From contig NSGV01000003.1 in assembly GCA_002300355.1 (NCBI GenBank), forward strand, positions 930,001-994,000: a stretch of DNA of 64,000 nucleotides, in the 5' to 3' direction. A program made the translations under genes and the position numbers. The notes beneath the pieces were generated by a model. It saw only the letters and a list, made by a program, of their open reading frames with translations, was not told the DNA's origin and ran no database searches. Origin of the DNA: Streptomyces sp. TLI_235. GTDB taxonomy: Bacteria > Actinomycetota > Actinomycetes > Streptomycetales > Streptomycetaceae. Shown here piece by piece: positions 10,028 through 64,000 of the stretch. Every line of letters begins with the position of its first letter. Within the stretch, counting starts at the first letter, position 1.

Positions 10028-10030
10028 TTA

Positions 10031-17698: not shown

Positions 17699-20121
17699 TC
17701 AGCGTCCGGACCGCCCGGCCGGAAAGGAGAGCCGGTAGTGCACGCCCGCCCGGAGTGCGAAACGCAGCTGTCGCCCGTCGTCGCAGACCCCGTCCGGCAC
17801 GACCTTGCCCCCGGCCGGGCCCGTGACGACCGGTCGGCCGGAGCCGTCGGGAAGGCGGATGTCGACCGTACCGTCTCGTTCGGTCCGCAGGTCCGCGCCG
17901 GTCAGCGAGCCCTGACGCCAGGTCAGGTCCACCACCGCGCCGCCCCGCGCGCGCAGGCCGCGGACCTCGCCGTCCGGCCAGGACGGCGGCAGGGCGGGCA
18001 GCAGCCGCAGGATGCCGTTGTGGCTCTGCAGCAGCATCTCGGCGATGGCGGCGGTGATGCCGAAGTTGCCGTCGACCTGGAAGAGCCGCGGCGGGTGCAG
18101 GTCGAAGAGGTTGGGCGCGACGGAGGTGGCGAGCAGGCGCTCGACGGCGTGCCCGGCGAGGGCGCCGTCGCCGAGCCGGGCGGCCAGCGCGGCGACCCAC
18201 GCGAGGCTCCAGCCGGTGCCGCCGCCGCCGTGTTCCAGCCGGCGGTCCAGCGCGCGGCGGGCCGGGGCGAGCAGGGTGTCGTCGGTGAGCGGGTCGACGG
18301 CACTGCCCGGATAGAGGCCGTACAGGTGGGAGAGGTGGCGGTGGCCGGGGTCCTCCTCGGGCAGGTCCTCCGCCCACTCCAGCAGGCGCCCGTCGGCACC
18401 GAGCGCAGGAGGCCGCAGCCGGGCGCGGACGCGGGCCGACTCCCGGGCGAGGTCGTGGTCGGTGTCCAGTTCCCTGGCGGTCGCGACGGTGTTGTCGAGC
18501 AGCTCGGCGGTCAGCCAGTAGTCCATCGTGCAGCCGGCGGTGACGGCGGACAGGGTGCCGTCGGCCAGCCTGAAGTGGTGCTCGGGCGAGGTGGACGGGC
18601 AGCTGACCAGGGTGCCGTCCGGGGCCTCGACCAGCAGGTGGGTGACGAAGCGGGCGGCCTCTCGCATCACCGGGTAGGCGCGCTCGGCGAGGAAGGCGCG
18701 GTCGCCGTGGAAGAGGTGGTGGTCCCACAGGTGGGCGGCCAGCCACGGCCCGGCCATCGGCCAGTTCGCCCAGACGGGGTCACCGGAGACGGGGTTGGTG
18801 GCGCGCCACAGGTCGACGTTGTGGTGGCAGCACCAGCCGGGGGCGTCGTAGTAGGAGCGCGCGGTGTTCCGCCCCGCCTCGGCGAGGTCGGCGACCAGGT
18901 CGAACAGCGACTCGTGGCACTCGGCGAGGCCGGTGGTCTCGGCCGGCCAGTAGTTCATCTGGACGTTGATGTTGGACGTCCAGTCGGAATCCAGGGCGGG
19001 GCGACCTCGGTGTTCCAGATGCCCTGGAGGTTCGCCGGCTGGGTGCCGGGCCGCGAGGAGGCGATCAGCAGGTAGCGGCCGTAGGCGAAGAGCAGGGCGG
19101 CGAGGCCCGGGTCGGGGGCGCCGGCGTTGGCGGCGGCGAGGCGTTCACCGGTCGGGCGGTCCGCTGCGGCCGCCGGGCCGTGGAGGCGGAGCGCGGCGGC
19201 GCCGAAGAGCCTGCGGTGGTCGGCCAGGTGCTCGGCGCGCAGCTTCTCGTAGTCCTGCCCCCCGGCGCCCGCCAGCCACCGGCGGGCCTCGGCCAGCGCG
19301 GCCTGCGGGCCGTCGGGCTGCTCGCGCCAGCCCCGGTAGCCGGTGCCGACGGCGACCAGCACCACCGCTTCGTCGGCGCCGGTGACGGCGAGTCCGTCCC
19401 CGTCGGCGCCGACCTGCCCGCCGACGGTGTGCACGCGCAGCGCGGCTGCGAACCCCGTACCCCGGTCGGCCCGGTAGTCGGCCGGGTGCACCTGCCTGCG
19501 CGTGAGGTGGGACGGGGCGCGTCCGCGGACGGCGAGGACGCCGTCCGGTTCGACGGACAGTTGCGCGTCCGGGTGGGGCGTGGTGAAGCCCGCGCGGAAG
19601 GAGAGGGATCCGGGGGCGTCGGTGGTGAGGCGGATGGCGAGCACCCCGGCGGGGGCGGAGACGAAGCTCTCCCGGCGGTACGCGACTCCGTCCGCCGTGT
19701 AGGACACCGTGTGCAGCGCTTGGTCGAGGTCGAGTTCCCGCCGGTAGTAGGCGACTTGGTCCGCCTCGGTCGGCGGGAAGGCCAGCAGCAGGGTGGCCAG
19801 CGGCTGGTACGCCTCGGTGTCCGGGCCCTGCAGGTGGGCGGCGGCGAGCGCATCGGCGCGGGCGTGGTCGCGGTCGCGCAGCACGGCCGCGCGGACGGCG
19901 GACAGGTGCTCGGCGGCGCCCGCCCGGTCGCGGGGGCCCGGGCCGCCCGACCACAGCGTGTCGGCGTTGAGGTCGATCCGCTCGGTGGCGATGCCTCCGT
20001 GGGTCATCGCGCCGAGCCGGCCGTTGCCGAGCGGGAGCGCGTCGAGGAAGTCGGCGGCGGGATGCCGGTACCAGAGCTGGTCGGCAGGGACGGGGGTGGG
20101 GACGTGGTCATGGAGAGACAC
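17699..20121 (-). pseudogene. GH95 alpha-L-fucosidase, single frameshift
   Basis: The N-terminal part starts at the GTG at 20121 (WYRHPAADFLDALPLGNGRLGAM, a GH95 hallmark). The frame breaks near 18997, where one base is missing in the codons for NTEVAPALDSDW. It continues as INVQMNYWPAETTGLAECHESLFDL to RLFQVDGNFGITAAIAEMLLQSH and stops at 17699. With the base restored it would be about 807 aa. GH95 enzymes invert alpha-1,2-fucosyl linkages, such as those on galactose in xyloglucan; some act on L-galactose. There is no signal peptide, so it is probably cytoplasmic. It is divergent from the SDR remnant, with palindromes between. Confidence 0.87.
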
Positions 20122-20310: not shown

Positions 20311-20881
20311 ATGGGTGAGCCCGACTTCGCGGGTCTGGCGGCCGTCGTCACCGGCGGCGCATCGGGCATCGGGCTGGCCACGGCCCGCCTGCTGGCGGCC
20401 CGTGGCGCGCGGGTCGCCTGCCTCGACGTGCGACCGGAAGGCGTCCCGTCCACGCTGGTTCGGGCGTACGCCGATGTCGCGGACGAGCAGTCGGTCCGCG
20501 CCGGGGTGGCCTGGGCCGCCGAACTGCTGGGCGGCATCGACATCCTGGTCAACTGCGCCGGTGTCGGCGCCCGCGACGGTGTCGAGCTGGGCGGCGAGGA
20601 GGAGTGGCGCAGAATGTTCGAGGTCGGCGTCCTCGGGGTGATGCGCACGACCCGGGCTCCCTGACCGCGCCGGGTTCGGAGCCGCTGCCGGACGCCGGCT
20701 CCGGGCCGACCCCCGACCGGGCCTCCGCGGAGGCTGGCAGCCGCACCGGCCACCCGGTGACCGCCGAGCGGGTGGCCACCGCCATCGCCTACCTGGCCGG
20801 CCCGCACACCGGTGCCACCACCGGCACCGACCTCGCCGTGGACGGCGGCGTGCGCGGCCCGCGCCTCCTCCCCCGCGACTA
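20311..20881 (+). pseudogene. Short-chain dehydrogenase/reductase with internal deletion
   Basis: The ATG at 20311 follows a strong gaggaggag ribosome binding site. The Rossmann start is normal (AVVTGGASGIGLATARLLAARGA...DILVNCAGVGARDGVE). After GVLGVMRTTRA about 20648 the catalytic Ser-Tyr-Lys region is missing. Sequence resumes in another frame with the C-terminal part (VTAERVATAIAYLAGPHTGATTGTDLAVDGG). About 80 residues appear to be lost. SDR enzymes of this kind oxidise sugars such as L-fucose or 2-keto-3-deoxy-fuconate. That role is inferred from the two fucosidases beside it. Confidence 0.8.
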
Positions 20882-20929
20882 GGCCCGCCCGCGGGCCCCG
20901 ACTTCCGTTCCCGTACGCGAGGAGACACC

Positions 20930-22924
20930 GTGTTCCGCCCCACTCCGCCCGACCCGAGCCGGTTCCCGCGCCGCACGGTGCACCTGGACTTCCACACCGG
21001 GCCCGACATCCCGGACGTCGGCCGGGACTTCGACCCGGCGGCCTTCGCACGGACCTTCCAGGACGCCGCCGTCGACAGCGTCACCGTCTTCGCCAAGTGC
21101 CACCACGGCCACCTCTACCACGCCACCGACCGGCCCGAGCGCCACCCCGGTCTCGCCCCCGGCCTCGACCTGCTGGCCGAACAGATCGACGCCCTGCACG
21201 CGGTGGGGATCCGCGCGCCGATCTACCTCTCCCTCCAGGTCGACGAGTACGCCGCCCGGGAGCACCCCGAGTGGATCGGACACGGCGAGGACCTGAAACT
21301 CAACCGCTGGACCACCTCCGCCTTCGACGCCGGCTGGAACGTGCTCGACATGTCCAGCCCGTACGCGGACTACTTCGCCGACCAGTTGGACGAGGTGCTG
21401 CGGCGCTTCGCGCCGGTCGACGGGATCTTCATCGACATGTGCTGGGACCAGCCGAGCGCGAGCCGCTGGGCGGTCGACGGCATGCGCCGCGCGGGCCTCG
21501 ACCCCGCCGACGCCGACCACCGGGCGCGCTACGCCACCCTGGTGGCCCACCGCTACATGGCGCGGTACTCCGCCATGGTGGAGAAGGCGCTGCCGGCGGA
21601 CGCCGCACAGGGCGTCTGGTTCAACAGCCGGCTCAAGGCCCGGCTGTCCGAGGAACGGCAGTTCGTGCGCCACGCCGAGATCGAGGGTCTGCCGACCGGC
21701 GGCTGGGGCTACACCTTCCTGCCGTACGTGGCCCGCTTCGTCCGGCCGATGGGTCTGCCGACCCTCAGTCACACGGGCCGGTTCCACGAGAGCTGGGGGG
21801 ACAACGCCGCCCTCAAGCCGCGGGCCGCCCTGCTCTACGAGTGCAGCCAGATGCTCAGCCACGGGCTGACCAGCGGCGTCGGCGACGTCCTGCACCCGCG
21901 CGGCACCCCGTCCGCGGCGGTGTACGAGCTGATCGGCTCGGTCTACCGGCACATCGAGCGGTGCGAACCGTTCGTCGAGGGCGGCCGCGTGCTCAGCGAG
22001 GTCGCGCTGGTCTCCGACCCCGCGCTCGGCGACAACCCCGGGGCGAGCATCATCGGCGCGGTGCGCGCCCTGCAGCAGCTGCGGGTGCAGTTCGACGTGG
22101 TCACCCCCGCCTCGGACCTGACCGGGTACCGGGCCGTGCTGGTACCGGAGACCACCCGGGTCGACGACTCCCTCGCCGCCCGCCTCCAGGAGTGCCGCAC
22201 GGGCGGCGGGGCGGTGCTGCTGATCGGGCCCGCACTGCTGAACGGTACCGAACCGGCCCTCCCCGACCTGCCGGTCGAGGGGCTGGCGCCCGCCCCGGAC
22301 GGCGAGTCCTTCCTGGCCTGCCAGGGCGTACCCGGCGTGGCGGAGGACTTCCCGGTGATCAGCCACGGCGCCCGGCTGACCGCTCGGGCCCGGGCCGGCG
22401 CGGAGGTGCTGGCCCGGGTGGTGGATCCGTACTTCCCCCGCAGCTGGGACAGGTTCTGCGGCCACTCGTACACGCCGCCGGCCGACCTCACGGACGAGGT
22501 CGCCGTGGCGGTGGCCGACGGGATGGGCGCGGTGACGGTGCCACTGCTGGAGGCGTTCCACGAGCACGGCCTGGAGACGTACCGGCAGCTGCTCGGGGCG
22601 GCGCTGGACCGGCTGCTGCCCGATCCGCTGGTGCGGGCCGGCGGGCCGGTCCACCTGGAGACCGGCGTGGTCCGCACGCCCACCGGCACGGTGGTGCACC
22701 TGATCAGCTTCGTGCCGGCCCGGGAGACCCCGGCGCTGGACCTGGTGCATGACCCGTTCCCGCTGGTGGACGTGCCGGTCTCGGTGCGCGTGACGGGCGA
22801 GCCGAGCGCGGTGCGGCTGCAGCCGGCCGGGCAGGAGCTCGACTGGCAGTACGACGGCGAGTACGTCCACGTGCGGGTGACCAGCCTGGACGGGCACGCG
22901 ATGGTCGTGGTCGACCACGGCTGA
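20930..22924 (+). CDS. Putative GH151-type alpha-L-fucosidase
   Basis: The protein has 664 aa and a GTG start at 20930 behind gcgaggaga. The N-terminal half is a TIM-barrel of the GHL6/alpha-amylase-like type (VHLDFHTGPDIPDVG, VTVFAKCHHGHLYH, DGIFIDMCWDQPSA). A beta-galactosidase trimerisation-like domain follows (about 375-570, VALVSDPALGDNPGASIIGAV, YRAVLVPETTRVDDSLA), then a C-terminal beta domain. This architecture fits family GH151 fucosidases. It has no signal peptide, so it would act on imported oligosaccharides. Its neighbours are a GH95 fucosidase and an SDR remnant. Assignment to GH151 rests on pattern recognition; another GH activity is possible. Confidence 0.65.
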   Translation: MFRPTPPDPSRFPRRTVHLDFHTGPDIPDVGRDFDPAAFARTFQDAAVDSVTVFAKCHHGHLYHATDRPERHPGLAPGLDLLAEQIDALHAVGIRAPIYLSLQVDEYAAREHPEWIGHGEDLKLNRWTTSAFDAGWNVLDMSSPYADYFADQLDEVLRRFAPVDGIFIDMCWDQPSASRWAVDGMRRAGLDPADADHRARYATLVAHRYMARYSAMVEKALPADAAQGVWFNSRLKARLSEERQFVRHAEIEGLPTGGWGYTFLPYVARFVRPMGLPTLSHTGRFHESWGDNAALKPRAALLYECSQMLSHGLTSGVGDVLHPRGTPSAAVYELIGSVYRHIERCEPFVEGGRVLSEVALVSDPALGDNPGASIIGAVRALQQLRVQFDVVTPASDLTGYRAVLVPETTRVDDSLAARLQECRTGGGAVLLIGPALLNGTEPALPDLPVEGLAPAPDGESFLACQGVPGVAEDFPVISHGARLTARARAGAEVLARVVDPYFPRSWDRFCGHSYTPPADLTDEVAVAVADGMGAVTVPLLEAFHEHGLETYRQLLGAALDRLLPDPLVRAGGPVHLETGVVRTPTGTVVHLISFVPARETPALDLVHDPFPLVDVPVSVRVTGEPSAVRLQPAGQELDWQYDGEYVHVRVTSLDGHAMVVVDHG

Positions 22925-23001: not shown

Positions 23002-23982
23002 CTACCCCAGGGCCCGGACGCGGTCGACCGCCTCGGCGACCATGCCTCGGCAGAACGACACGTGCTCGCCCTGGTACCCGCGAGGGCCGCATTCGACGAC
23101 CAGCAGCAGGGCCAGGTACAGCTGGTAGAGCGCGATGCGGTGCCGGAGGGCGGGGGTGAAGTCGAGGCGTCCGCCCGCGCCGGTGTGGCCCGCCACCAGG
23201 TCGCTGTCCGGTCCGGTGTCGCCGCCGAAGGCCAGCGAGACCAGCTCGGCGGCGGGGTCGCCCCAGAACGCGCGCTCGTGGTCGATCAGCCCGGTGACCC
23301 GGGGGCCCGCCGGATCCACGAAGATGTTGCCCGGCCACAGGTCGAAGTGGACCAGCTTCGGCTCGGTGACCTCGGCGAGGGCATGGCCGCCTTCGGCCAC
23401 CATGGTCCGCAGCTCGTCGGGCCGCAGGCCGAGCGGGGACTGCCACCGGTCGGCGTCCTCGAGAGTCGCCTCCACCATCGCGGTGAACGCCGTCCGCCAG
23501 TCGTCGGCGGCCAGTGCGGACTCGGCCGCGGGGTACCCGAAGCGGCCGTCCGCCGGGGCCAGGCTGTGCAGGCGCGCGGTGATCGCGCCGAGTTGCCGGC
23601 GCAGCTCCGCCGACGCGCCGGGGGTCAGCTCCTCCCAGGACTTCTCCCACGGGATCCCGTCCAGGACGGACAGGACGAGGAACTCCTCCCCCTCGTACAG
23701 CAGTCGGGGTGCCGGTACGGCGCCGGCCGGCAGGGTTGCGAGCAACCGGTAGACCATCGCCTCGGTGGCGAGGATGCCGCGTTCGTACCGGAGCACCGGC
23801 ACGTCGGGCGGCGGGGCGAGTTTGACCACGGCGGGCCGGCCGTCGTCCAGCCGGACGCGGTGGACGCTGTTGAACCAGCCGTCGGTCAGTTCGCCCTCCA
23901 CCCGGCAGCCGAGGCCGGTGGAGGTGCGCAGCAGGGTGTCGAGTTCGTCGGCGGTCAGCCGGCGTTTGGTGAGGCTTTCCAT
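23002..23982 (-). CDS. APH/ChoK-like phosphotransferase
   Basis: The protein has 326 aa from the ATG at 23982. It shows the aminoglycoside-phosphotransferase/choline-kinase fold: a nucleotide-binding N-lobe (VHRVRLDDGRPAVVKLAPP), the catalytic loop LVHFDLWPGNIFVD and the metal-binding IDHERAFWGDPAAEL. Substrates of this broad group include antibiotics, sugars and small alcohols. Beside fucosidase and xylosidase genes a sugar kinase role is conceivable but unproven. It is followed on the same strand upstream by the GH31 operon, from which a terminator hairpin at 24018-24051 separates it. Confidence 0.8.
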   Translation of the reverse strand: MESLTKRRLTADELDTLLRTSTGLGCRVEGELTDGWFNSVHRVRLDDGRPAVVKLAPPPDVPVLRYERGILATEAMVYRLLATLPAGAVPAPRLLYEGEEFLVLSVLDGIPWEKSWEELTPGASAELRRQLGAITARLHSLAPADGRFGYPAAESALAADDWRTAFTAMVEATLEDADRWQSPLGLRPDELRTMVAEGGHALAEVTEPKLVHFDLWPGNIFVDPAGPRVTGLIDHERAFWGDPAAELVSLAFGGDTGPDSDLVAGHTGAGGRLDFTPALRHRIALYQLYLALLLVVECGPRGYQGEHVSFCRGMVAEAVDRVRALG

Positions 23983-24058: not shown

Positions 24059-26341
24059 TCAGGCCGGGTACGGGAGGTGGGCCTCGGGGGTGCCGGCCTG
24101 CTGGGTGTGCAGGGGGCGGTACGGGCCGCCGATGCGCACGTGCCAAGGGTGCGGGCTGTCGGTGGTGACGGTGAGCCGGTCGCCGGTGCGGCGCAGGTGG
24201 AAGCGGGCGGCGTCGCCGACGCCGTCGCTGCGCGGGACGGTGACGGTGCGTTCGGCGCCGTCGGCGAAGGCGTGGACGAGCAGTTCGACTCCGTCGGCCC
24301 AGGCGGAGACCGGGCGCTGGTCGTCGGCGGCGAGCGGGATGACGGAGTCGGGGCGGGCGAGCAGCGGGAGGGTGTGGAAGCCGTGCTGCTCCTTGGCCCA
24401 GCGCGGGCCGACGACCTGGCGGCCGGTCAGGACGTTGGTCCAGGTGCCCTCGGGGACGTAGTACTCGACGGTGCCGTCGTCGGTGAAGACCGGGGCGACC
24501 AGGAGATCGTCGCCGAGCAGGTACTGCCGGTCGAGGGTGGCGGCGGCGGGGTCGTCGGGGAACTCGAGCACCATGGCGCGCATCACCGGGATGCCGGTGG
24601 CGTGCGCGTGCTGGGCGGCGCGCTGCAGGTAGGGCGCGAGGCGGTGCTTGAGCAGGGTGAACTCGCGGGTGACCTCCACCGCCTCCTCACCGTAGTCCCA
24701 CGGCACCCGGTAGGACTTGCTGCCGTGCAGGCGGCTGTGCGAGGAGAGCAGACCGAACTGCACCCAGCGCTTGAACACCGTGGGGGTGGGGGTGCCTTCG
24801 AAGCCGCCGATGTCGTGGCTCCAGAAGCCGAAGCCGGACAGGCCGAGGGAGAGCCCGCCGCGCAGGGACTCGGCCATGGCGTTGAAGTGGGACTCGCAGT
24901 CGCCGCCCCAGTGCACCGGGTACTGCTGCCCGCCGGCGGTGGCGGAGCGGGCGAACAGCAGCGTCTCGCCCTCGCCGCGTTCCTCGCGCAGCAGCTCGAA
25001 GACGGCCCGGTTGTAGAGGTGGGTGTAGTAGTTGTGCATCCGCTCGGGGTCGGAGCCGTCGTGCCAGACGACGTCGGTGGGGATGCGCTCGCCGAAGTCG
25101 GTCTTGATGCAGTCCACGCCTTGCGCGAGCAGGGTGCGCAGCTTGCCGGTGTACCAGTCGCGGGCGGCCGGGTTGGTGAAGTCGACCAGGGCCATGCCGG
25201 GCTGCCACAGGTCCCACTGCCACACGCTGCCGTCCGCCCGGCGCACCAGGTACCCCTCGCGCATCCCCTCCTCGAAGAGCGCGGACTTCTGCGCGATGTA
25301 CGGGTTGATCCAGGCCGAGATCCGCAGGCCCTGCTGCTTGAGGCGGGCCAGCATGCCGGCCGGGTCGGGGAAGGTGTCGGCGTCCCAGTCGAAGTCGCAC
25401 CACTGGTACTCGCGCATCCAGAAGCAGTCGAGGTGGAAGACGCTGAGCGGGATGCCGCGTTCGGCCATGCCGCCGACGAAGCGGTTGACGGTGGCCTCGT
25501 CGTAGTCGGTGGTGAAGGAGGTGGTGAGCCACAGTCCGAGCGCCCAGGCGGGCGGCAGGGCGGGGCGGCCGGTGAGCGCGGTGTACCGCTCCAGGATCTC
25601 CTTGGGTGTGGGGCCGTAGACGACGAAGTACTCGAGCGACTGGTCCTCGACGCTGAACTGCACCTGTCCGACCGACTCGGATCCGACCTCGTAGCTGACC
25701 TTCCCGGGGTGGTTGACGAAGACGCCGTAGCCCCGGTTGGTCAGATGGAACGGGACGTTCTTGTAGGACTGTTCGCTGCTGGTGCCGCCGTCGGCCTGCC
25801 AGATGTCGACCACCTGGCCGTTGCGGACGAACGGGGTGAACCGCTCCCCCAGCCCGTAGACCAGTTCGCCGACACCTAGCGCGAGTTGGCCGAGCATGTG
25901 GTGCCGACCGTCGGCGTCGGTGACGAAGGCGGTGCCGCGCTCGCCGACGCTGGTCAGCACCCGGCCGCCGGCGGTGAACTCCAGACGCCAGGGCTGGGAG
26001 GTGTCCACGCGCAGCGTCAGTTCGCCGGCGCTGAGCTCCACCACCGCCCCGTCGCGGTGGACCTTCCCGCTGCCGTCCTGCGCGCCGGGCAGGGCGAACT
26101 CCGGTCCGCGGCGGACGGATCCGGCGTGATGGGTGGCGCGCACCCCGATCACGCCTTCTGCCGGGGACCAGCACTCGACGGTCAGCAGCGGGCTGTTGAG
26201 CGTGTCGCCGCGGCCGCGCACGTGCTTGACGGGCGCGTAGAGGGTGAGCCGGTGCTCCTCGGCCCGGACGTCGGCGACCTCGGCGGCGTAGCGGGCGGTG
26301 CAGCCCGGACGCATCAGCCAGTAGCCGTCGGTGAACTTCAT
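24059..26341 (-). CDS. GH31 alpha-xylosidase, YicI-like
   Basis: The protein has 760 aa from the ATG at 26341, which overlaps the GH1 stop (ATGA). The N-terminal GH31 beta domain (YGLGERFTPFVRNGQ) precedes the barrel, with nucleophile Asp415 in CIKTDFGERIP and acid/base Asp481 in HWGGDCESHF. These positions nearly equal Asp416 and Asp482 of E. coli YicI, a cytoplasmic alpha-xylosidase acting on isoprimeverose units of xyloglucan. WQWDLWQPGMALVDFTNP is also typical. No signal peptide is present. It is the last gene of the esterase-GH1-GH31 operon and the strongest marker that the locus targets xyloglucan. Confidence 0.9.
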   Translation of the reverse strand: MKFTDGYWLMRPGCTARYAAEVADVRAEEHRLTLYAPVKHVRGRGDTLNSPLLTVECWSPAEGVIGVRATHHAGSVRRGPEFALPGAQDGSGKVHRDGAVVELSAGELTLRVDTSQPWRLEFTAGGRVLTSVGERGTAFVTDADGRHHMLGQLALGVGELVYGLGERFTPFVRNGQVVDIWQADGGTSSEQSYKNVPFHLTNRGYGVFVNHPGKVSYEVGSESVGQVQFSVEDQSLEYFVVYGPTPKEILERYTALTGRPALPPAWALGLWLTTSFTTDYDEATVNRFVGGMAERGIPLSVFHLDCFWMREYQWCDFDWDADTFPDPAGMLARLKQQGLRISAWINPYIAQKSALFEEGMREGYLVRRADGSVWQWDLWQPGMALVDFTNPAARDWYTGKLRTLLAQGVDCIKTDFGERIPTDVVWHDGSDPERMHNYYTHLYNRAVFELLREERGEGETLLFARSATAGGQQYPVHWGGDCESHFNAMAESLRGGLSLGLSGFGFWSHDIGGFEGTPTPTVFKRWVQFGLLSSHSRLHGSKSYRVPWDYGEEAVEVTREFTLLKHRLAPYLQRAAQHAHATGIPVMRAMVLEFPDDPAAATLDRQYLLGDDLLVAPVFTDDGTVEYYVPEGTWTNVLTGRQVVGPRWAKEQHGFHTLPLLARPDSVIPLAADDQRPVSAWADGVELLVHAFADGAERTVTVPRSDGVGDAARFHLRRTGDRLTVTTDSPHPWHVRIGGPYRPLHTQQAGTPEAHLPYPA

Positions 26342-27756
26342 CGGGAGGATTCCTCCGTCCGCGCGCGGTGCGCGGTGATCAGGCCCCGGTACCAGTGGTA
26401 GCTGTCCTTGGGCGTTCGGGTCAGGGTGTCGTAGTCGACGTGGACCAGGCCGAAGCGCTGGCCGTAGCCGCGGGCCCACTCGAAGTTGTCCAGCAGCGAC
26501 CAGACGTAGTAGCCGCGCACGTCCACCAGGGCCGCGGCCGCGTCGGCGACGGCGGCCAGGTGCGCGGCGAGGTACCGGGTCCGCTCCGGGTCGTGGACGC
26601 GCCCCTCCGGGCGGGCCACGTCCTCGAAGGCGGCGCCGTTCTCGGTGATCCAGACCGGTGGCAGCTGCGGGTAGCGGGCATGCAGCTCGCACAGCAGCTC
26701 GGTGAGCGCGGCCGGGACGACCGGCCAACCCATGGTGGTGTGCCGGGTGCCGTACGGGTCCAGCTCGGTGACGCCGATGTCCACGGCGGTGCGTGCTTCT
26801 CGGTCGTCCGTGCGGTGAGGGGCGGCGGCGACGGTGATCGGGCGGTAGAAGTTGACGCCGAGGAAGTCCAGCGGCGCGCCGATCACCTCCAGGTCGCCGG
26901 GCTGCCGCCAGGGGCCGTCGGCGAGACCGGCCCAGGTCTCGGCCTCCTGCGCGGGGTAGCGTCCGGCGAGGAGCGGCTCGGTCCAGACGTCGTTGTGCAG
27001 CACCTCGGCGCGGCGCACGGCGGCGAGGTCCTCGGGGCGGTCGGAGGCGGCGTGGATGCGGTCGAGGTTGAGGGCGATGCCGATCTCCCGGGCGCCGGCG
27101 GCGCGCAGCTCCCGTACGGCCAGCCCGTGGGCGACCAGCAGGTGGTGTGCGGCGGCGAGCGCGCCGCGGCCCTCCTGGACGCCGGGGGCGTGCCGGCCTT
27201 CGGCGTAGCCGACGAACGCGGAGCAGTACGGCTCGTTGAGGGTGATCCAGCGCTCCACCCGGTCGCCGTAGCGTTCGGCGGCGAGGGCCGCGTACGACGC
27301 GAACGCCTCGGCGGTCTCCCGGACGCGCCAGCCGCCACGGTCCTCCAGGGCCTGCGGCAGGTCCCAGTGGTAGAGGGTGACGGCGGGTCGGATTCCGGCG
27401 GCGAACAGGTCGTCGATCAGGCGGTCGTAGAAGTCCAGGCCCTTCCGGTTCACCGGGCCGGTTCCCTGGGGCAGCAGGCGGGGCCAGGCGATCGAGAAGC
27501 GGTAGCTGTCGACGCCGAGCCCGCGCAGCAGGCCCACGTCCTCCCGGTAGCGGTGGTAGTGGTCGCAGGCGGTGTCGCCGGTTGCGCCGCCGAGGGTGTG
27601 TCCGGGTGTGTGGCTGAAGGTGTCCCAGATGGAGGGGGCACGGCCGTCCAGGTCGTGGGCGCCCTCGATCTGGTACGCGGCGGTGGCGGCGCCGAAGCGG
27701 AATCCGGCGGGCAGCGCGGGGAAGTCCGGCTCCTCCCAGGGGGTCACGGCGGTCAC
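26338..27756 (-). CDS. GH1 beta-glucosidase
   Basis: The protein has 472 aa. The GTG at 27756 overlaps the stop of the esterase gene (GTGA), and its own TGA overlaps the GH31 start. Catalytic acid/base Glu175 lies in ITLNEPYCSAF and nucleophile Glu372 in VWITENGAAF. The N-terminal FRFGAATAAYQIEGA and C-terminal YVWSLLDNFEWARGYGQRFGLVHVDY are GH1 signatures. It has no signal peptide, so it probably removes glucose from imported cello- or xyloglucan oligosaccharides in the cytoplasm, after or alternating with the alpha-xylosidase encoded next to it. Confidence 0.93.
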   Translation of the reverse strand: MTAVTPWEEPDFPALPAGFRFGAATAAYQIEGAHDLDGRAPSIWDTFSHTPGHTLGGATGDTACDHYHRYREDVGLLRGLGVDSYRFSIAWPRLLPQGTGPVNRKGLDFYDRLIDDLFAAGIRPAVTLYHWDLPQALEDRGGWRVRETAEAFASYAALAAERYGDRVERWITLNEPYCSAFVGYAEGRHAPGVQEGRGALAAAHHLLVAHGLAVRELRAAGAREIGIALNLDRIHAASDRPEDLAAVRRAEVLHNDVWTEPLLAGRYPAQEAETWAGLADGPWRQPGDLEVIGAPLDFLGVNFYRPITVAAAPHRTDDREARTAVDIGVTELDPYGTRHTTMGWPVVPAALTELLCELHARYPQLPPVWITENGAAFEDVARPEGRVHDPERTRYLAAHLAAVADAAAALVDVRGYYVWSLLDNFEWARGYGQRFGLVHVDYDTLTRTPKDSYHWYRGLITAHRARTEESSR

Positions 27757-28736
27757 CGCCCCGGCCCGAGGCCGCGCTGGTGGAGCCAGGCCAGTTGGGT
27801 GGGCGGGTTGGAGCCGCATCCGCCGCCGTGGTCGGCGAACGGCCAGACCGTCATGGTGCGGTCCTCGCCGGCGTAGCGGTTGAAGGCGGCGTAGACCGTC
27901 CGCGGCGGGCAGACCGGGTCCATCAGGCCGACGCTGAACAGGGCCGGGGCGGTGGCCCGCGAGGCGAAGTGGACGCCGTCGAAGTACTCGAGGGTGGCGA
28001 AGGTCGGCTGTACGCGCTGCCGGCTGTGCCAGCGCAGGTACTTGACGAGCTCCTGGTACGGCCCGTCCAGGGAGGTCTGCGCGCCCTCACGGTAGTGGCA
28101 GAGGAACGGGACGTCCGGCATCACCGCGGCCACCTGGTGCCCGGTGAGCCCGGCGGCGGCGAGCGCCAGCCCACCGCCCTGGCTGCCGCCGGTCACCACG
28201 ATCCGGTCCGGGTCGAGGCCGGGCAGCTGCTCGACGGCGTCGACGGCGCGCGCGCAGTCGGTCATCAGCCGCCGGAAGTAGTGGTTCTCCGGGGAGTCGA
28301 TACCGCGGGTCATGAAGCCCTCGGCCCACTGGGTGCCGTCGCCCATGCTTCGGTCCGGGGTGTCGTGGCCCTGGCCGCGGCTGTCCACGACGAGGTGGGC
28401 GTAGCCGGCGGCGGACCAGAACAGGTGCTCGGTGGGCAGGCCGCGGCCGCCGCTGTAGCCCTGGTAGCTGACGACGACGGGCAGCGGTCCCTCCACACCG
28501 CGCGGGCGCAGCAGCCAGGCGGCCACCGGCTCGCCGTTCCAGCCGGGGAACCGTACGTCGTCGACCTCGACAGTGCGCAGTCCGTAATGCGCGGTGACGC
28601 GTTCGGCCTTGACCGCCCCGCCGTGCGAGCGGGCCTCGGCGAGGGTGCGCTGCCAGAACTCGTCGAAATCCTGCGGGATGGTCGACTCGGGCTGGTAGCC
28701 GGCGAGTTCGTCGAGTCCGAAGTCGGTGAGCGGCAC
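27753..28736 (-). CDS. CE7 acetyl esterase (acetyl xylan esterase/cephalosporin C deacetylase type)
   Basis: The protein has 327 aa. The GTG at 28736 is preceded by cggagga at good spacing; a longer frame to 28796 lacks a site. The alpha/beta-hydrolase triad is Ser185 (GGSQGGG), Asp273 (GLMDPVCPP) and His303 (ADHGGG), with the CE7 marker RGQGHD. The length matches the family. It removes O-acetyl groups from oligosaccharides; xyloglucan and xylan are naturally acetylated. It is the first gene of the operon CE7-GH1-GH31 and has no signal peptide, so it acts on imported sugars. Confidence 0.9.
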   Translation of the reverse strand: MPLTDFGLDELAGYQPESTIPQDFDEFWQRTLAEARSHGGAVKAERVTAHYGLRTVEVDDVRFPGWNGEPVAAWLLRPRGVEGPLPVVVSYQGYSGGRGLPTEHLFWSAAGYAHLVVDSRGQGHDTPDRSMGDGTQWAEGFMTRGIDSPENHYFRRLMTDCARAVDAVEQLPGLDPDRIVVTGGSQGGGLALAAAGLTGHQVAAVMPDVPFLCHYREGAQTSLDGPYQELVKYLRWHSRQRVQPTFATLEYFDGVHFASRATAPALFSVGLMDPVCPPRTVYAAFNRYAGEDRTMTVWPFADHGGGCGSNPPTQLAWLHQRGLGPGR

Positions 28737-28884
28737 GGGGGATTCCTCCGGGTGTTGCGAGGACGAGGTGAGGTGGTGGGGCGTGAGCAGTGACATGGGG
28801 CCGCCTCCGGGCGGCGGGTGACGGGGTCGGAACGGATGCGGCAGCGGGCGGGTCTCCCGGCTCGCAGGCCTGGCAGGGACTGGA

Positions 28885-28933: not shown

Positions 28934-31786
28934 TCAGCCGGCCGCGCCGAAGCGGTAGGCGGCGAGCCGGAAGTCGCCGTGCAGCGTCAGGCTCAGGTCG
29001 CGCACGCCGTGGAGCGGGGCGTCGAGTTCGGTGGTGGTGCTCGTCCAGGCTCGGCGGTCTCCGGTCACGGGCACGTCGATCTCGGCCAGCACCCGGCCGG
29101 CGGCCCGGACTTCGAGTCGCGCGCCGCCCGTGCCGCCGCCCTCGCGGGCGATCTCGATGTCGATCGTGCAGGCGCCGGAAAGGTCGAGCTCGCGGAAGAG
29201 CAGCGTTGCCGGCTGTGCGGGATCGGCGGGCGTGACGGCGTCGCCGTCGGTGCGGGTGGCGTCGACGATGGCGGCACCCGCGTAATCGTCGAAGTCGACG
29301 GCCAGGACGCGGCGTCCGACCACCGCGCGCGGCCCGGGCGCCGTTCCGGTGACGGTGAGCGGCGCGGTGAGCACCGGGTGCTCGGCCGAGCGGGCGATGA
29401 CGATCTCGTAGCCGCCGGGGTCGACGGTGAAGGCGCCGGTGGCGACGTCCCAGTGGGCGAACCGCTCGGCCGGCAGGTGGAAGGTCAGCTCGCGGCTCTC
29501 GCCCGGCTCCAGGCTGACCTTGGCGAAGTCCACCAGGCGCAGCCGGGGCGCATGGTAGCGGGCGTCCAGGGCGCGGACGTAGAGCTGGACCACCTCGCTG
29601 CCGGTCCGCTGTCCGGTGTTGGCCAGCGTCAGGGTGGCGTCGAGGGCGCCGTCCTGCTCGATCGACGCCTCGGACAGGCGCAGGTCACGGTGGGCGAACT
29701 CGGTGTAGGAGAGCCCGTGGCCGAACGGGTAGAGCGGCACGGCCCGGTGGTACTGGTAGGTCCAGCCGGCTTTGATGATGTCGTAGTCCAGCGGCGCCGG
29801 CAGGGTGTCGTCGCCCCGGTACCAGGTCTGCGGGAGGCGGCCGGCCGGCTCGGCCTCGCCGAGCAGCACGGCGGCCAGCGCGTGGCCGGTCTCCTGGCCG
29901 CCGTGGGAGGTCCACAGCACGGCGGGCAGGTGGGCGTCGGCCCAGTCGACGGCGTACGGGTAGCTGCTCATCACCACCAGCGCGGTCTGCGGCCGTACGG
30001 CGGCGACGGCGCGCAGCAGTGCTTCCTGCCCGGCGGGCAGGGCGATGTCGACCCGGTCCTCGGTCTCGCGGCCGTTGACCAGCGGGTGGTTGCCGAGCAC
30101 CACGACGGCGACGTCGGCGCCCTCGGCCGCGGCGCGGGCCTCGGCGGTGCCGTCGCGCAGCAGGTCGCGATGCCAGCGCTCGGCGTCCTCGGCGCTGTCG
30201 GCGGTGACGGTGACCCGGCCGTCGGCCGGATCGACGGCGGCGTAGCGGCCGGTGAAGACGGAGCGCACCAGCACGGTGCCGTCCTCGGCCGGTTCCAGGT
30301 GGAAGGTCTCCTGGACGAACCAGCTCTTGATCACCTGCGTGTCGGCGACCAGGGTGGCGTCGTCCTTGAGGCAGAGGTAGCGGCCGGTGTCGGCGTCGCG
30401 CAGGGTCAGCCTGGAGCGTCCCCAGTCGGTCACGTCGAACGCGGTGCCGCCGAGCAGTTCGCCGGTGGTGCGCGAGCGCAGCGTGATCCGGTCGCTGCCC
30501 TCCACCCGGACGACCTCGCCGCCGTGGGCGCCGAGTGCGGCGGTGAGGCCGTCGGCGACGGTGGCCTGATAGGGCAGGGTGCCGCTGTACCAGTCCTCGC
30601 ACAGCATGTCGGAGAGCGGGCCGATCACGGCCACCCGCGAGGTGCGGGCGAGGCCCAGCGGGAGCAGGCCGTCGTTCTTGAGCAGCACCGTCGTCTCCGC
30701 GGCGGCGTGCCGGGCGAGCTCGCGGTGCTCCGCGCAGTTGACCACTTCCGGACCGATTCCCGTGTACGGGTCCAGCTCCGGGTCGAACTCGCCGAGGCGG
30801 AAGCGCACTTCGAGCTGGCGGCGGACCGCGCCGTCGATGTCGTCCTGCGAGATCAGACCGCGCTCCAGGGCTTCGCGCAGCCGGCCGACGACCGTCTCGC
30901 TGTCCTCGCCGTGGTCGGTGAAGCTGTCGATGCCGGCCTTGAGCGCGGCCGCGTGGCCCTCGGCGTGGTCGTCGAAGTAGTGCTCGGGGTCGACCAGGTT
31001 GGACGGGGCCTCGGCGTCGCTGACCACGAACAGCTCGTGCCCGGTACCCCGCGCCCAGCGGCGCAGCTCGTCCGCGATCAGCGGACTGACGTGGCAGGGA
31101 CGGCCGTTGACCAGGTTGTAGGCGGCCATCGCGCCGGTCGCGGCGCCGGAGCCGACCACCGGGCGGAAGGCCGCCAGGTCGTACTCCTGCAGCACCCGCG
31201 GGCGCAGGCCGGACGAGGTCAAGCAGCGGTCGTCCTCGTTGTTGTAGGCGAGGAAGTGCTTGAGCACCGACGCCGAGCGCAGGTACGCCGGGTGGTCGCC
31301 GGCCAGGCCGCGGCAGTACGCCTCGCCGAGCCGGGCGGTGTGCACCGGGTCCTCGGAGTAGCCCTCCTCGTTGCGCCCCCAGCGGGGGTCGCGCAGCAGG
31401 TTCAGCACCGGGGCCCAGGCCTGCAGGCTGTTGGGCCCGCGGTCGGGGGCCACCGCCGGCGGCCGGTGGTGGTGGAAGGCGCGCAGCTCGACGGAGACCG
31501 CCTCGGCGACCCGGCGCAGCAGCGCTTCGTCCCAGCTGGCGCCGAGGCCGACGGCCTGCGGGAAGACGGTCGCCTCACCGAGCCAGGAGACGCCGTGCAG
31601 CGCCTCGCTGCCGGTGCGGAACGCGGCGATGCCCAGGCGTGGTACGGCCGGCGCGTACTGGTGCAGCATCGCGGTCCGCTCCTCGGGCGTGAGCCGCCCC
31701 AGCAGGTCGTCGATGCGCTTGCGCAGGGGGAGCGCTGGATCACGGAACGGGAGCAGCTGAGCTGCGGACATGGCGGGGGTAGTCAA
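28934..31786 (-). CDS. GH3 beta-glycosidase with beta-trefoil insert and CBM6-like C-terminus
   Basis: The protein has about 950 aa. A TTG at 31786 has gaaggg upstream; the ATG at 31771 is the alternative. The GH3 barrel carries DPRWGRNEEGYSEDP and the nucleophile Asp257 in LFVVSDAEA. The second GH3 domain (TTVLLKNDGLLPL) is interrupted at about residues 430-545 by a fascin-like beta-trefoil stretch (TGRYLCLKDDATLVAD, FTGRYAAVDP) where a PA14 insert is more usual. A fibronectin-III-like domain follows, then a CBM6-like domain (about 820-950). No signal peptide is seen. It probably hydrolyses beta-glucosides or beta-xylosides. It is divergent from the ABC operon, with shared palindromes. Confidence 0.87.
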   Translation of the reverse strand: MTTPAMSAAQLLPFRDPALPLRKRIDDLLGRLTPEERTAMLHQYAPAVPRLGIAAFRTGSEALHGVSWLGEATVFPQAVGLGASWDEALLRRVAEAVSVELRAFHHHRPPAVAPDRGPNSLQAWAPVLNLLRDPRWGRNEEGYSEDPVHTARLGEAYCRGLAGDHPAYLRSASVLKHFLAYNNEDDRCLTSSGLRPRVLQEYDLAAFRPVVGSGAATGAMAAYNLVNGRPCHVSPLIADELRRWARGTGHELFVVSDAEAPSNLVDPEHYFDDHAEGHAAALKAGIDSFTDHGEDSETVVGRLREALERGLISQDDIDGAVRRQLEVRFRLGEFDPELDPYTGIGPEVVNCAEHRELARHAAAETTVLLKNDGLLPLGLARTSRVAVIGPLSDMLCEDWYSGTLPYQATVADGLTAALGAHGGEVVRVEGSDRITLRSRTTGELLGGTAFDVTDWGRSRLTLRDADTGRYLCLKDDATLVADTQVIKSWFVQETFHLEPAEDGTVLVRSVFTGRYAAVDPADGRVTVTADSAEDAERWHRDLLRDGTAEARAAAEGADVAVVVLGNHPLVNGRETEDRVDIALPAGQEALLRAVAAVRPQTALVVMSSYPYAVDWADAHLPAVLWTSHGGQETGHALAAVLLGEAEPAGRLPQTWYRGDDTLPAPLDYDIIKAGWTYQYHRAVPLYPFGHGLSYTEFAHRDLRLSEASIEQDGALDATLTLANTGQRTGSEVVQLYVRALDARYHAPRLRLVDFAKVSLEPGESRELTFHLPAERFAHWDVATGAFTVDPGGYEIVIARSAEHPVLTAPLTVTGTAPGPRAVVGRRVLAVDFDDYAGAAIVDATRTDGDAVTPADPAQPATLLFRELDLSGACTIDIEIAREGGGTGGARLEVRAAGRVLAEIDVPVTGDRRAWTSTTTELDAPLHGVRDLSLTLHGDFRLAAYRFGAAG

Positions 31787-31824
31787 CGGGGGACCCTTCG
31801 GACAGGCAGGGCGCTATGGCCGTT

Positions 31825-31842
31825 CGTCGAAGCGCTTCGACG
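31825..31842. promoter_or_regulatory. 18-bp palindromic operator in the GH3/ABC divergent promoter
   Basis: cgtcgaagcgcttcgacg is a perfect palindrome with the LacI-type core AAGCGCTT, 39 bp upstream of the GH3 start. A second AAGCGCTT site lies at 31950. The LacI gene at 35625 in the same operon is the likely binder. Confidence 0.75.
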
Positions 31843-31945
31843 CTGACACGCATCAAGCCCGCTGTCAACTTCCCTGCAAACAAGGGTTTTTGCATTTGTT
31901 CAGGCACTTGCCCAATCGGAAACGCGTCGTTAGTCTCGCCGCAAC

Positions 31946-31960
31946 ATTCAAGCGCTTCGA
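31946..31960. promoter_or_regulatory. Second AAGCGCTT operator before the solute-binding protein gene
   Basis: ttcaagcgcttcgac shares the aagcgcttcga core with the site at 31825 and lies 36 bp before the ATG at 31996. The 125-bp spacing between the centres would allow looping or separate control of both directions. Confidence 0.7.
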
Positions 31961-31995
31961 CGCTTTGGCACCTCGACGGAGAAGGATCATGCGCC

Positions 31996-33677
31996 ATGAG
32001 ATCTGACTTGGACCGAAGGAGCTTCCTGGGCGCCGCTGCCACGGTCGCGGGAGCCGCAGCGATGGCACCGCTGCTCACCGCCTGCGGCGGCGGCGCCGCA
32101 AAGAAGGCAGGCGCGAACACCAAGGAGGGCCTGAAGGCGGCGCTGCCGGCCCACGTGCCGAACGGCAACGCGGTCAAGCCGGACATCGCCTCCGTGCAGG
32201 GCGGACCGGACGCCGCGACCGACCCGGCCTACCTCTCCTACCCCGCCTCCCCGCCCGCCAGCGTCTCCGGCGTCCCGGGCAAGGGCGGCAGCTACACGGC
32301 GGTCACCCCGCTGTGGGGCACCAACCCGCCGGCCGGCAACTCCTTCTTCCAGGCGATGAACAAAGCGCTCGGGGTCGAGCTGACCGTCAAGCCCGCGGAC
32401 GGGAACACCTACGACACCATCGTCCCGACGATGACCGCCGCCAAGAAGCTGCCGGACTGGATCAACCTGCCGGCCTGGTGGAACGCCAAGTTCAACACCG
32501 GCGCGCTGGTGGGCAGCCAGCTCGCGGACCTGACCCCGTACCTGTCCGGCGACAACATCAAGAAGTACCCGAACCTGGCCGCCCTCCCCACCGGCGCCTG
32601 GCAGAACGGGGTCTGGGGCGACAAGCTCTACGGGATCCCCTGCTTCTCCACCAGCTTCGGCATCCCGGGAGCCACCTTCTACCGCCGGGACATCCTCGAA
32701 GCCCGGGGCATCACGGCCGACCAGGTGAAGTCCGCCGACGACCTGATGAACATCGGCAAGGAGCTGACCGACGCCAAGCGCGGCGTGTGGGCCTTCGACG
32801 ACGTGTGGACCTACCTCCAGTTCAGCTGGGGCGTCCCCATGAACTGGAGGGTCGACAACGGCAAGCTGGTCCACCCGTTCGAGACCCAGGAGTTCCTGGA
32901 GGCCCTCGACTGGCACTACCGCCTGGCCACCGCCGGCTACATGCACCCGGACGCGCTCGCCGGTGACAACGCCAACGGTTCCACCCGCTTCTACAGCGGG
33001 AAGGTGCTCATCGCGGGCGGCGGACTGGGCGCCTGGAACCTGGCCGACCACCAGTCCGGCACCGCCGCGGACCCGAACTACCGGCGCGGCGCCCTCAACG
33101 CCGTCACCGCCGGCGGAACAGGCACGCCGGTGATCTACATGGGTGCCTCCGCCAGCATGATCAGCTATCTCAACGCCGACCTGAAGCCCGCGCAGATCGA
33201 GGAACTCCTCTCCGTCGCGAACTACCTGGCCGCCCCCTACGGCACCGCCGAGTACACCCTGGTCAACTTCGGTGTCGAGGGCGTCCACCACACCCGGGTC
33301 AACGGCGTGCCGACCTTCACGGACGAGGGCAAGAAGGACGTCCAGGCGACGGCCTTCCCCTTCCTGGCCGCCTCCTCCTCCGTGATCAGCAACCCGGGCG
33401 GCGACCAGGTCACCAAGGACTACGCGACCTGGTCGGCCGCCAACGTCAAGTACCTCACCAAGCCGCCCTTCTGGGCATGAACTTCACCATGCCCCAGGCG
33501 ATCGCCTCGGCCGCGGCGGCGCAGAACGTCAACGACACCATCAAGGACTGCTACCACGGCAAGAAAAAGGTCTCCGAGGTGCAGGACGCCATCTCCAGCT
33601 GGCGGTCCGGCCCCGGCGAGCGACTCAAGCAGTGGATGACCGACAACGTCCTCGACAAGTACGGCACCGGCCAGTGA
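31996..33677 (+). pseudogene. ABC sugar importer solute-binding lipoprotein, single frameshift
   Basis: The ATG at 31996 gives a twin-arginine lipoprotein signal (DRRSFLGAAATVAG...LLTAC). The mature part is an extracellular solute-binding protein of the LplA type, seen with LplB/YtcP permeases. At about 33474 one G of a GGGG run appears missing. The frame stops at 33480 (FWA), while the natural C-terminus (MNFTMPQAIASAAAAQNVND...LDKYGTGQ) follows in the next frame to 33677. Restored, the protein would be about 560 aa. It would bring oligosaccharides to the permeases encoded immediately downstream. A sequencing error is quite possible. Confidence 0.88.
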
Positions 33678-34621
33678 GCACCACAGCACCGCACCGCCCC
33701 GCCGGCACCGTGCACCGCAACTGGCGGATCAGACTGCGGCGCGACAAGTCGCTCCTCCTGATGACCGTGCCCGCGGTGGTCCTGCTCCTGGTGTTCAACT
33801 ACGTCCCGCTCTTCGGCATCGTCACCGCCTTCCAGGAGTACGACCCGCTGGTCGGGGTCTGGCACAGTGAATGGGTCGGATTCGACCAGTTCCAGCAGCT
33901 GTTCGGCGACCCGGCGTTCTGGGCCTCGATGAGGAACACGCTGTACCTGAGCTTCGTCCAGCTGGTCCTGTTCTTCCCGGTCCCGATCGCGCTCGCCCTG
34001 CTGCTCAACTCGGTGATGAGCGAGCGGATCCGCAACCTGTTCCAGTCCGTGGTCTACCTGCCGCACTTCTTCTCGTGGGTGCTCGCGATCACCATCTTCC
34101 AACAGATGCTGGGCGGCGCCGGCGCGCTCAACCAGTTCCTGCGCCAGCACGACATCGGCACCTGGGACATCATGACCAACCCGGACACCTTCGCGCTGCT
34201 GGTCACCTCCCAGGCGATCTGGAAGGAGGCCGGCTGGGGAATCATCGTCTTCCTCGCGGCGCTGAGCGCGATCAACAGCGAGCTGTACGAGGCCGCGGCG
34301 GCGGATGGCGCGGGACCGCTGAGGCGGATGTGGCACATCACGCTGCCGGGCCTGCGCGGGGTGATCGTCCTGATGCTGGTCCTGCGCCTCGGCAACGCGC
34401 TGTCCGTCGGCTTCGAGCAGTTCCTGATCCAGCGCGACGCGGTCGGCCACGAGGCGGCGGACGTCCTGGACACCTTCTCCTTCTACTACGGCATCGCCAC
34501 CGGCGGCTACAGCTACGGCGCGGCGGCCGGGCTCTTCAAGAGCGTGGTCTCGCTGCTGCTGATCTGGGGCGCCAACAAGCTGGCACACGCCTTCGGCGAG
34601 GACGGGCTGTACCGAAAATGA
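33674..34621 (+). CDS. ABC sugar transporter permease, LplB-type
   Basis: The protein has 315 aa. The GTG at 33674 overlaps the stop of the solute-binding protein gene. Six membrane segments are apparent, beginning SLLLMTVPAVVLLLVFNYVPLFG. The EAA loop is ELYEAAAADGAGPLRRMWHITLPGL. This family imports complex oligosaccharides in Gram-positive bacteria and lacks a dedicated ATPase in the operon. A shared MsiK-type ATPase encoded elsewhere would be needed, as is usual in streptomycetes. Its own stop overlaps the ATG of the partner permease. Confidence 0.9.
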   Translation: MSTTAPHRPAGTVHRNWRIRLRRDKSLLLMTVPAVVLLLVFNYVPLFGIVTAFQEYDPLVGVWHSEWVGFDQFQQLFGDPAFWASMRNTLYLSFVQLVLFFPVPIALALLLNSVMSERIRNLFQSVVYLPHFFSWVLAITIFQQMLGGAGALNQFLRQHDIGTWDIMTNPDTFALLVTSQAIWKEAGWGIIVFLAALSAINSELYEAAAADGAGPLRRMWHITLPGLRGVIVLMLVLRLGNALSVGFEQFLIQRDAVGHEAADVLDTFSFYYGIATGGYSYGAAAGLFKSVVSLLLIWGANKLAHAFGEDGLYRK

Positions 34622-35592
34622 CCAACGCACTCACCATCGGCTCCCGGCGCGAGCGGCGCGGCCGGGAAGCACGCACCACCCGGCGCGGGGCCCGCTCCGC
34701 CCGCCCGCCCTGGGAGGAGCCGCCCACCGTCGTCGGCCGGACCGCCAAGGGGCTGACGCTCGGGACGACGCTCGCCGTCATCCTGGGCCCGCTCTGGATC
34801 ATCGTGCTGACCAGCTTCTCCACGCCCGGTGCCGTCAACCGGGCCGGCGGTCTGGTGATCTGGCCGGACGGCCTGAGCACCGAGGCGTACCGTCAGATGC
34901 TCAGCGACCCGACGGTCGTCACCGCCCTGATGGTGAGCCTGGGCATCACGGTGGTCGGAACGGCGGTGTCCATGGCCGTCTCGGTCCTGTGCGCCTACGG
35001 CCTCTCCCGGTCGCGCTCCCTCGGGCACCGCTTCATCCTGATGCTGCTGATCGTCACGATGTTCGTCGGCGGTGGCCTGATCCCGAGCTTCCTGGTGGTC
35101 ACAGGGCTGGGCGGCTACGGCCAGTGGTGGGCGCTGATCCTGCCGGGCGCGGTCTCCGTCTTCAACATCCTGGTGCTGCGCGCCTTCTACCAGGGCACCT
35201 CCTCCGAACTGATCGACGCCGCCCGGATGGACGGCGCCGGCGACTGGCGGATCCTGTGGTCCGTCGTCCTGCCCACCTCACGTGCCGTCACCGCGGTCAC
35301 CGCGCTGTTCTACGCCGTGGGTTACTGGAACTCGTTCTTCAACGTCATGCTCTACATGCCGACGGACAGTCAGAAGTGGCCGCTTCAGTACGTGCTGCTC
35401 ACGTACGTCAACCGGGGCAACGGCCTGCCCGGTTCCGTCAACTCCGGCTTCGGCAGCGCCCACGCCCAGACCGCACCGCTGTCACTCCAGATGGCGGTCG
35501 TGGTCCTCACCCTGGTGCCGCTGGTGATCGTGTACCCGTTCGTGCAGAAGCACCTGCGCACCGGTGTCCTGACCGGCGCGATCAAGGGCTGA
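34618..35592 (+). CDS. ABC sugar transporter permease, YtcP/LplC-type
   Basis: The protein has 324 aa, with the ATG at 34618 overlapping the previous stop (ATGA). An unusually basic N-terminal extension of about 45 residues (RRERRGREARTTRRGARSAR) precedes six membrane segments. The EAA motif is ELIDAARMDGAGDWRILWSVVLP, and the C-terminal LRTGVLTGAIKG is typical of the group. It forms the translocation pore with the upstream permease. Confidence 0.9.
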   Translation: MTNALTIGSRRERRGREARTTRRGARSARPPWEEPPTVVGRTAKGLTLGTTLAVILGPLWIIVLTSFSTPGAVNRAGGLVIWPDGLSTEAYRQMLSDPTVVTALMVSLGITVVGTAVSMAVSVLCAYGLSRSRSLGHRFILMLLIVTMFVGGGLIPSFLVVTGLGGYGQWWALILPGAVSVFNILVLRAFYQGTSSELIDAARMDGAGDWRILWSVVLPTSRAVTAVTALFYAVGYWNSFFNVMLYMPTDSQKWPLQYVLLTYVNRGNGLPGSVNSGFGSAHAQTAPLSLQMAVVVLTLVPLVIVYPFVQKHLRTGVLTGAIKG

Positions 35593-35624
35593 GCCCCACC
35601 GGAACCCCTACGAAGGAAACAGCG

Positions 35625-62497: not shown

Positions 62498-64000
<1,503 letters not shown>

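Follow-up and report, generated by a model that had tools for sequence, protein, structure and literature searches.

Three α-l-fucosidases of glycoside hydrolase family 151 (GH151) have been characterized, and two of these are weak or inactive on trisaccharides (PMC11189522). In ALfuk2 (iso2) of Paenibacillus thiaminolyticus (PDB 6TVK), D154 is the nucleophile, E235 is the acid/base, and His503 is contributed by the adjacent monomer (PMC10154630). With Mfuc3, recovered from a soil metagenome, release amounted to 2% from 2′-FL, 1% of fucose from citrus xyloglucan, and, for two other xyloglucans, 7% of the epitope (PMC4723247). The induction of a GH151 enzyme lacking activity on 2′FL and 3FL has been called unclear (PMC7522266), and the status of GH151 enzymes as genuine fucosidases has been questioned (PMC8395109, 2021). 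GH151 thus combines few characterized members with a doubtful natural substrate. A soil clade in which GH151 is linked to genes of l-fucose catabolism would supply enzymes that can be tested, and a defined substrate of plant origin to try. Among the papers listed by our literature searches, drawn mostly from outside the subscription journals, we found no study of the GH151 clade treated here or of the GH151-GH95 operon of Rhizobium.

Here we describe a gene that very probably specifies a GH151-type α-l-fucosidase, as judged from sequence and a structural model, within a 64,000-nucleotide stretch of DNA (the window). To this family call, ordinary but sound, which adds a new member to a family already known, the locus contributes a broken GH95 gene and a recurrent tie to l-fucose breakdown.

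Results

Domain layout, fold, and predicted catalytic residues

The reading frame begins with GTG, 5 bases behind a GAGGAG stretch, and continues for 664 uninterrupted codons with a third-position G+C of 0.97, a strong coding bias (Table 1). Pfam matched GHL6 to residues 35-170 (E 2.6e-27), part of Alpha_L_fucos to residues 32-230 (E 2.8e-08, above the cut-off; profile positions 92-274 of 345), and a short GH42M trimerisation domain to the 52 residues 379-430 (E 5.9e-06; 26.4 bits vs a cut-off of 25.8). From these three matches we take the layout of barrel plus trimerisation domain, already read from the sequence in a preliminary description, to be real. A like pair of domain matches, GHL6 and an A4 β-galactosidase middle domain, was reported for Mfuc3, which was placed in GH151 later (PMC4723247, PMC10154630). 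NCBIfam profiles returned 0 families for the 664-residue protein. No signal peptide was seen by eye, and the protein is probably cytoplasmic.

A phmmer search of 177,635 distinct PDB sequences returned two matches at E up to 1, namely, 6TVK (E 1.5e-89, residues 15-663) and 6GN6, the isoenzyme 1 α-l-fucosidase of P. thiaminolyticus (E 1e-4). 6TVK, the sole GH151 α-l-fucosidase structure found in this search, is 30.7% identical to the window protein across 638 aligned columns. The AlphaFold2 monomer model (mean pLDDT 92.6, pTM 0.91) was built on an alignment of 49 rows that holds one locus fewer (L006 omitted) than the 51-row alignment described below. It superposes on 6TVK with a Z score of 39.8 and an rmsd of 2.0 Å over 642 residues (Foldseek TM 0.92), and the superposition displays a (β/α)8 barrel, a Rossmann-like middle domain, and a C-terminal β-sandwich. 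The next structural match is another fucosidase (Z 23.1), and the best GH42 enzyme among the matches listed reaches Z 21.7. Two other families were considered and rejected: GH29, on account of the partial Alpha_L_fucos match, the E value of 6GN6, and a far lower fold score; and GH42, on account of a GH42M match confined to 52 residues, the lack of a Glyco_hydro_42 barrel (PF02449) at E up to 1, and again a far lower fold score.

The functional residues of ALfuk2 correspond to D183, E264, and H532 of the 6TVK chain, a constant offset of 29 that serves to verify the numbering, and align with D169, E252, and H512 of the window protein. All three columns are invariant in 51 of 51 rows (the window, 49 loci, and 6TVK). 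For D169 and H512 this conservation is partly by choice, because, of the six peptide patterns used to collect the 61 loci, two include one or the other residue; none includes E252. The alignment excludes seven loci, mostly partial matches (L050, L052, L054, L058, L059, L060, and L062), and 5 more were dropped for stop codons within the matched span. A second set found without peptide patterns keeps the three residues in 15 of 15 rows (the window, 6TVK, 2 Rhizobiaceae, and 11 members of the window's genus); at least 6 of the 11 genus rows are genomes already among the 61 loci, and the 2 Rhizobiaceae rows are independent. The preliminary assignment of the gene to GH151 thus has good support from sequence match, fold, and functional residues.

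Table 1. Features of the GH151 locus (window coordinates) and candidate fucose pathway genes farther along the same contig (prefix C3)
Feature	Position	Strand	Basis or remark
Two-frame GH62 with ricin-type lectin part	16094-17644	+	Shift at ~16830-16860
GH95, C-terminal piece (rest of catalytic part, C-terminal domain)	17699..18958	-	ORFs, Pfam
GH95, N-terminal piece, ending at frame shift near 18990	18955..20121	-	ORFs, Pfam; intact in G025
Broken short-chain dehydrogenase (SDR), 5′ piece	20311..20664	+	adh_short 2.8e-21
Same SDR gene, 3′ piece, other frame	20682..20882	+	adh_short_C2 1.7e-06
GH151-type α-l-fucosidase (predicted), 664 aa	20930..22924	+	ORF, Pfam, 6TVK match, AF2 model
D169 codon, aligned with ALfuk2 nucleophile D154	21434..21436	+	Alignments; model barrel strand 166-169 ends there
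E252 codon, aligned with ALfuk2 acid/base E235	21683..21685	+	Alignments; model strand 249-252 ends there
H512 codon, aligned with ALfuk2 His503 (lent to neighboring subunit's active site)	22463..22465	+	Alignments
APH/fructosamine-kinase-like protein, converging on GH151, conserved in G002	23002..23982	-	Pfam
GH31 α-xylosidase	24059..26341	-	Pfam; NCBIfam equivalog, 1222 bits vs cut-off 606
GH1 β-glycosidase	26338..27819	-	Pfam
AXE1 acetyl esterase	27753..28796	-	Pfam
GH3 β-glycosidase with CBM6	28934..31786	-	Pfam
Probable lipoprotein sugar-binding protein	31816..33480	+	Lipobox-like stretch inside ORF, by eye; no Pfam match
ABC sugar permease	33632..34621	+	Pfam
LacI regulator	34989..36653	+	Pfam; domains from residue 215
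GH42 β-galactosidase	36681..38666	+	Pfam
GH5 with CBM_X2 and CBM46	44418..46163	+	Pfam
l-Fuconate dehydratase relative, 82%	C3:1006624-1007973		Sequence match
SDR relative, 75%, ~76 kb from GH151	C3:1027061-1027819		Sequence match
Hydrolase relative, 69%	C3:1027935-1028783		Sequence match
Fuconolactonase relative, ~56-60%	C3:1033502-1034356		187.8 of 400 bits, below NCBIfam cut-off

Relatives and selection

GH151 relatives occur in 17 of the 70 genomes of the window's genus, near full length and without stops in 14 and as fragments in 3; in one genome (G019), the N-terminus matches as two overlapping pieces. Among 297 genomes of the family searched at E up to 1e-50, a single match, itself partial, lies outside the genus. 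In a midpoint-rooted tree of 53 proteins, the window protein falls within a Streptomycetaceae group with Kineococcus adjacent, followed by other Actinomycetota, Chloroflexota, Abditibacteriota, and PVC-group bacteria, while 6TVK and the two Rhizobiaceae proteins stand apart from this clade on long branches. The dN/dS ratio is 0.19-0.35 against 10 relatives and 0.33 with the nearest (G002); as judged from these sequence comparisons, the gene is under purifying selection.

Broken neighbors of GH151

The GH95 gene that the preliminary description placed next to GH151 is present at 17699-20121 (-), but it is divided between two overlapping ORFs whose frames differ, a split that the description did not mention. 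Elsewhere in the genus the gene is intact in a single frame of 810 residues (G025; L024/L096), reduced to a remnant (G002), or interrupted (G019). An error in this assembly is conceivable, since a nearby GH62 gene shows a similar frame change; a second GH62, at 62498-63925, is matched by its whole profile. The deduction that two adjacent fucosidase families indicate different fucose linkages finds no support, because GH95 is frame-shifted and the known preferences of the families overlap: characterized GH95 enzymes cleave Fuc-α1,2-Gal (PMC11189522), and GH151 enzymes too act on Fuc-α1,2-Gal disaccharides (PMC10154630).

Upstream of GH151, at a distance of 47 bases, the SDR gene lacks 202 bases relative to genome G002 and changes frame, and this loss is not an error of the frame-shift kind. 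Deletion and frame change together rule out a working l-fucose dehydrogenase encoded by this SDR gene. By eye, the catalytic YxxxK motif of SDRs appears lost from the GH151-side SDR in three genomes (G002, G005, and G068) and is present in G025; another genome (G032) carries an intact SDR paralogue ~9 kb upstream of GH151. The best 60 PDB matches of the SDR are various generic dehydrogenases only. Two adjacent IS4/5-type transposase genes lie at window positions 9160-10986 (+).

A probable xyloglucan-type gene set and a candidate route for l-fucose

Xyloglucan is degraded by taking off fucose, galactose, xylose, and glucose in turn, while esterases remove acetyl groups. The genes around GH151 (Table 1) appear to form a set of this type, which also includes a GH43 gene among the GH42 and GH5 genes; the GH5 enzyme is probably of the endo-glucanase/xyloglucanase type. 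For GH31 we took as the start an internal Met from which the family match runs, and the true start of the LacI gene is probably internal too, given that its domains begin only at residue 215.

The window's contig also holds two further GH29 genes (at 1001263 and 1044813) as well as fragments of one more near 1041400-1042200. A search of the genome for l-fucose isomerase (PF07881) returned nothing. Together with the oxidative-pathway relatives on the contig, this makes an oxidative route the most likely fate of freed fucose.

Linkage of GH151 with fucose genes elsewhere

Gene neighborhoods were viewed in 12 of the 14 genus genomes with near-full-length GH151 (in G004 and G043 the gene sits at a contig end). 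At least one fucose-related gene was found in 10 of these 12 stretches of 20 kb vs 1 of 40 control stretches, which had been placed by hand in even steps across 8 genomes rather than at random; since the stretches are related by descent, the Fisher P value of 4.4e-8 overstates the significance. GH95 occurs in 6 stretches, broken or as a remnant in 3 of them (the window, G002, and G019), fuconolactonase-like genes in 5, GH29 (probed with catalytic parts only) in 4, and l-fuconate dehydratase in 2; two stretches have none of the four. The sole positive control is a fuconolactonase-like match. By hand count, any GH95 gene is present in 14 of 17 genus genomes with GH151 vs 29 of 53 without, a weak difference (P 0.049), whereas a GH95 subtype with high scores (E ≤ 1e-150) is present in 9 of 17 vs 4 of 53 (P 1.6e-4).

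Beyond the genus, Kineococcus L009 has an l-fuconate dehydratase (E 5.5e-206 to 1YEY) and a fuconolactonase-like gene (187.5 bits against an NCBIfam cut-off of 400), both within ~8 kb of GH151, and a second Kineococcus locus (L013) has a relative of l-fuconate dehydratase nearby. In Planotetraspora (L017), GH29 and GH98 accompany GH151, and a 2,4-didehydro-3-deoxy-l-rhamnonate hydrolase match below the cut-off lies ~8 kb on. GH29 matches obtained with the L017 query among the 61 loci and in the window's genome may reflect the GntR domain of that query. The GH98 protein of Planotetraspora mira, encoded directly after GH151 (L017:10007-16485), has 1487 residues and F5/F8-type domains. An isomerase and a kinase downstream of GH151 in L007, candidates for rhamnose use, were identified by NCBIfam as xylose isomerase and xylulokinase. 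None of the fucose genes searched for was found in 51 of the 61 loci, all non-Actinomycetota included (E 1e-12; actinobacterial and rhizobial probes; many short contigs).

GH151 relatives were also found in 27 plasmid records, 25 of them from Rhizobium. Two of the 27 were viewed, one being a Rhizobium record, and both of these Rhizobiaceae records have the order importer-GH151-LacI-UgpC-GH95. Since GH95 accompanies GH151 in both, and given the excess of fucose-related genes over control stretches in the genus, the GH151-GH95 pairing looks non-accidental. In Actinomycetota, l-fuconate dehydratase and fuconolactonase-like genes turn up near GH151 repeatedly, an argument for regarding GH151 enzymes as genuine fucosidases.

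Discussion

We propose that the GH151 protein would act as a cytoplasmic, retaining α-l-fucosidase, in which D169 would attack the anomeric carbon of a terminal α-l-fucoside, E252 would serve as the acid/base, and H512 from the neighboring subunit would complete the pocket. Activity, retention, oligomer, substrate, and cell location are all predicted. The substrates would be small imported plant oligosaccharides, most likely the Fuc-α1,2-Gal units of xyloglucan, and removal of fucose would precede the action of the GH42, GH31, GH1, and GH3 enzymes encoded alongside. Freed l-fucose would then enter the oxidative pathway through fuconolactonase and l-fuconate dehydratase, whose likely genes lie ~54-81 kb downstream. 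We regard the chances of xyloglucan being the source as evenly balanced; the uncertainty arises because Mfuc3 is poor on both 2′-FL and xyloglucans.

A rather less probable but serious contender is a GH151 enzyme with another natural substrate, either another l-sugar or a non-xyloglucan fucoside (such as an α-l-galactoside, fucose of pectin or arabinogalactan, or fucosyl disaccharides from other enzymes). The poor performance of characterized GH151 enzymes on trisaccharides and xyloglucan, the distance of the window's clade from 6TVK, and a barrel fold common to GH29 α-l-galactosidases would all suit such a substrate, but the repeated linkage of l-fucose catabolism genes to GH151 and the xyloglucan type of this locus weigh against it. 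It is unlikely that the gene belongs to an eroding island and is decaying into a pseudogene with no present role. The breakage of GH95, SDR, and the nearby GH62, the fragments that are all that 3 of the 17 GH151-bearing genus genomes retain, and the state of GH95 near GH151 (broken or a remnant in 3 of 6) hint at decay, whereas the GH151 ORF is intact, retains all three residues, and has dN/dS ratios of 0.33 to its nearest relative, G002, and 0.19-0.35 to 9 further ones. Finally, a GH42-like β-galactosidase or α-l-arabinopyranosidase merely sharing domains with fucosidases, as the GH42M match, Foldseek ranks 2-15 (all GH42 enzymes), and the β-galactosidase annotation of some Rhizobium relatives might suggest, is highly improbable against the far better match to 6TVK (Z 39.8 vs 21.7 and TM 0.92 vs 0.67 for GH42 among the matches listed), the conserved fucosidase nucleophile and acid/base, the absence of the Pfam GH42 barrel at E up to 1, and the failure of Mfuc3, another GH151 enzyme, to cut pNP-β-galactoside (PMC4723247).

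For GH151 enzymes in general, a more specific role can be put forward, doubtfully: rather than generalist fucosidases, they may serve specifically as the intracellular first step that feeds the oxidative l-fucose pathway, and would act after import on short fucosides (disaccharides) left by GH29/GH95 or endo-enzymes. If true, this would explain why GH151 enzymes look inactive on trisaccharides yet recur near ABC importers, GH95, and l-fuconate dehydratase across unrelated lineages.

Among known systems, ALfuk2 has the same three domains, fold, nucleophile, acid/base, and histidine position as the window protein; the two differ in sequence (30.7% identity) and belong to separate clades. GH29 α-l-fucosidases share the barrel fold with the model (Z ~21-23), but only ~266-366 residues align, at 10-17% identity among the matches listed, and the other domains are unlike. 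Mfuc3, likened by description, has a soil origin and the GHL6/β-galactosidase middle domain in common with the window protein (PMC4723247). The locus of Blon_0346, a GH151 enzyme of Bifidobacterium longum subsp. infantis, likewise has an ABC importer and l-fuconate dehydratase (PMC7522266), a likeness of locus content, not of sequence, in a human-milk setting. In the Rhizobiaceae (R. johnstonii 3841 plasmid pRL12, L102; Sinorhizobium sp. B11, L101), GH151 and GH95 lie ~2.3 kb apart together with a sugar ABC importer and LacI. There, the genes form a single co-directional run on large plasmids and GH95 is annotated as one gene, whereas in the window the two genes are divergent and GH95 is broken.
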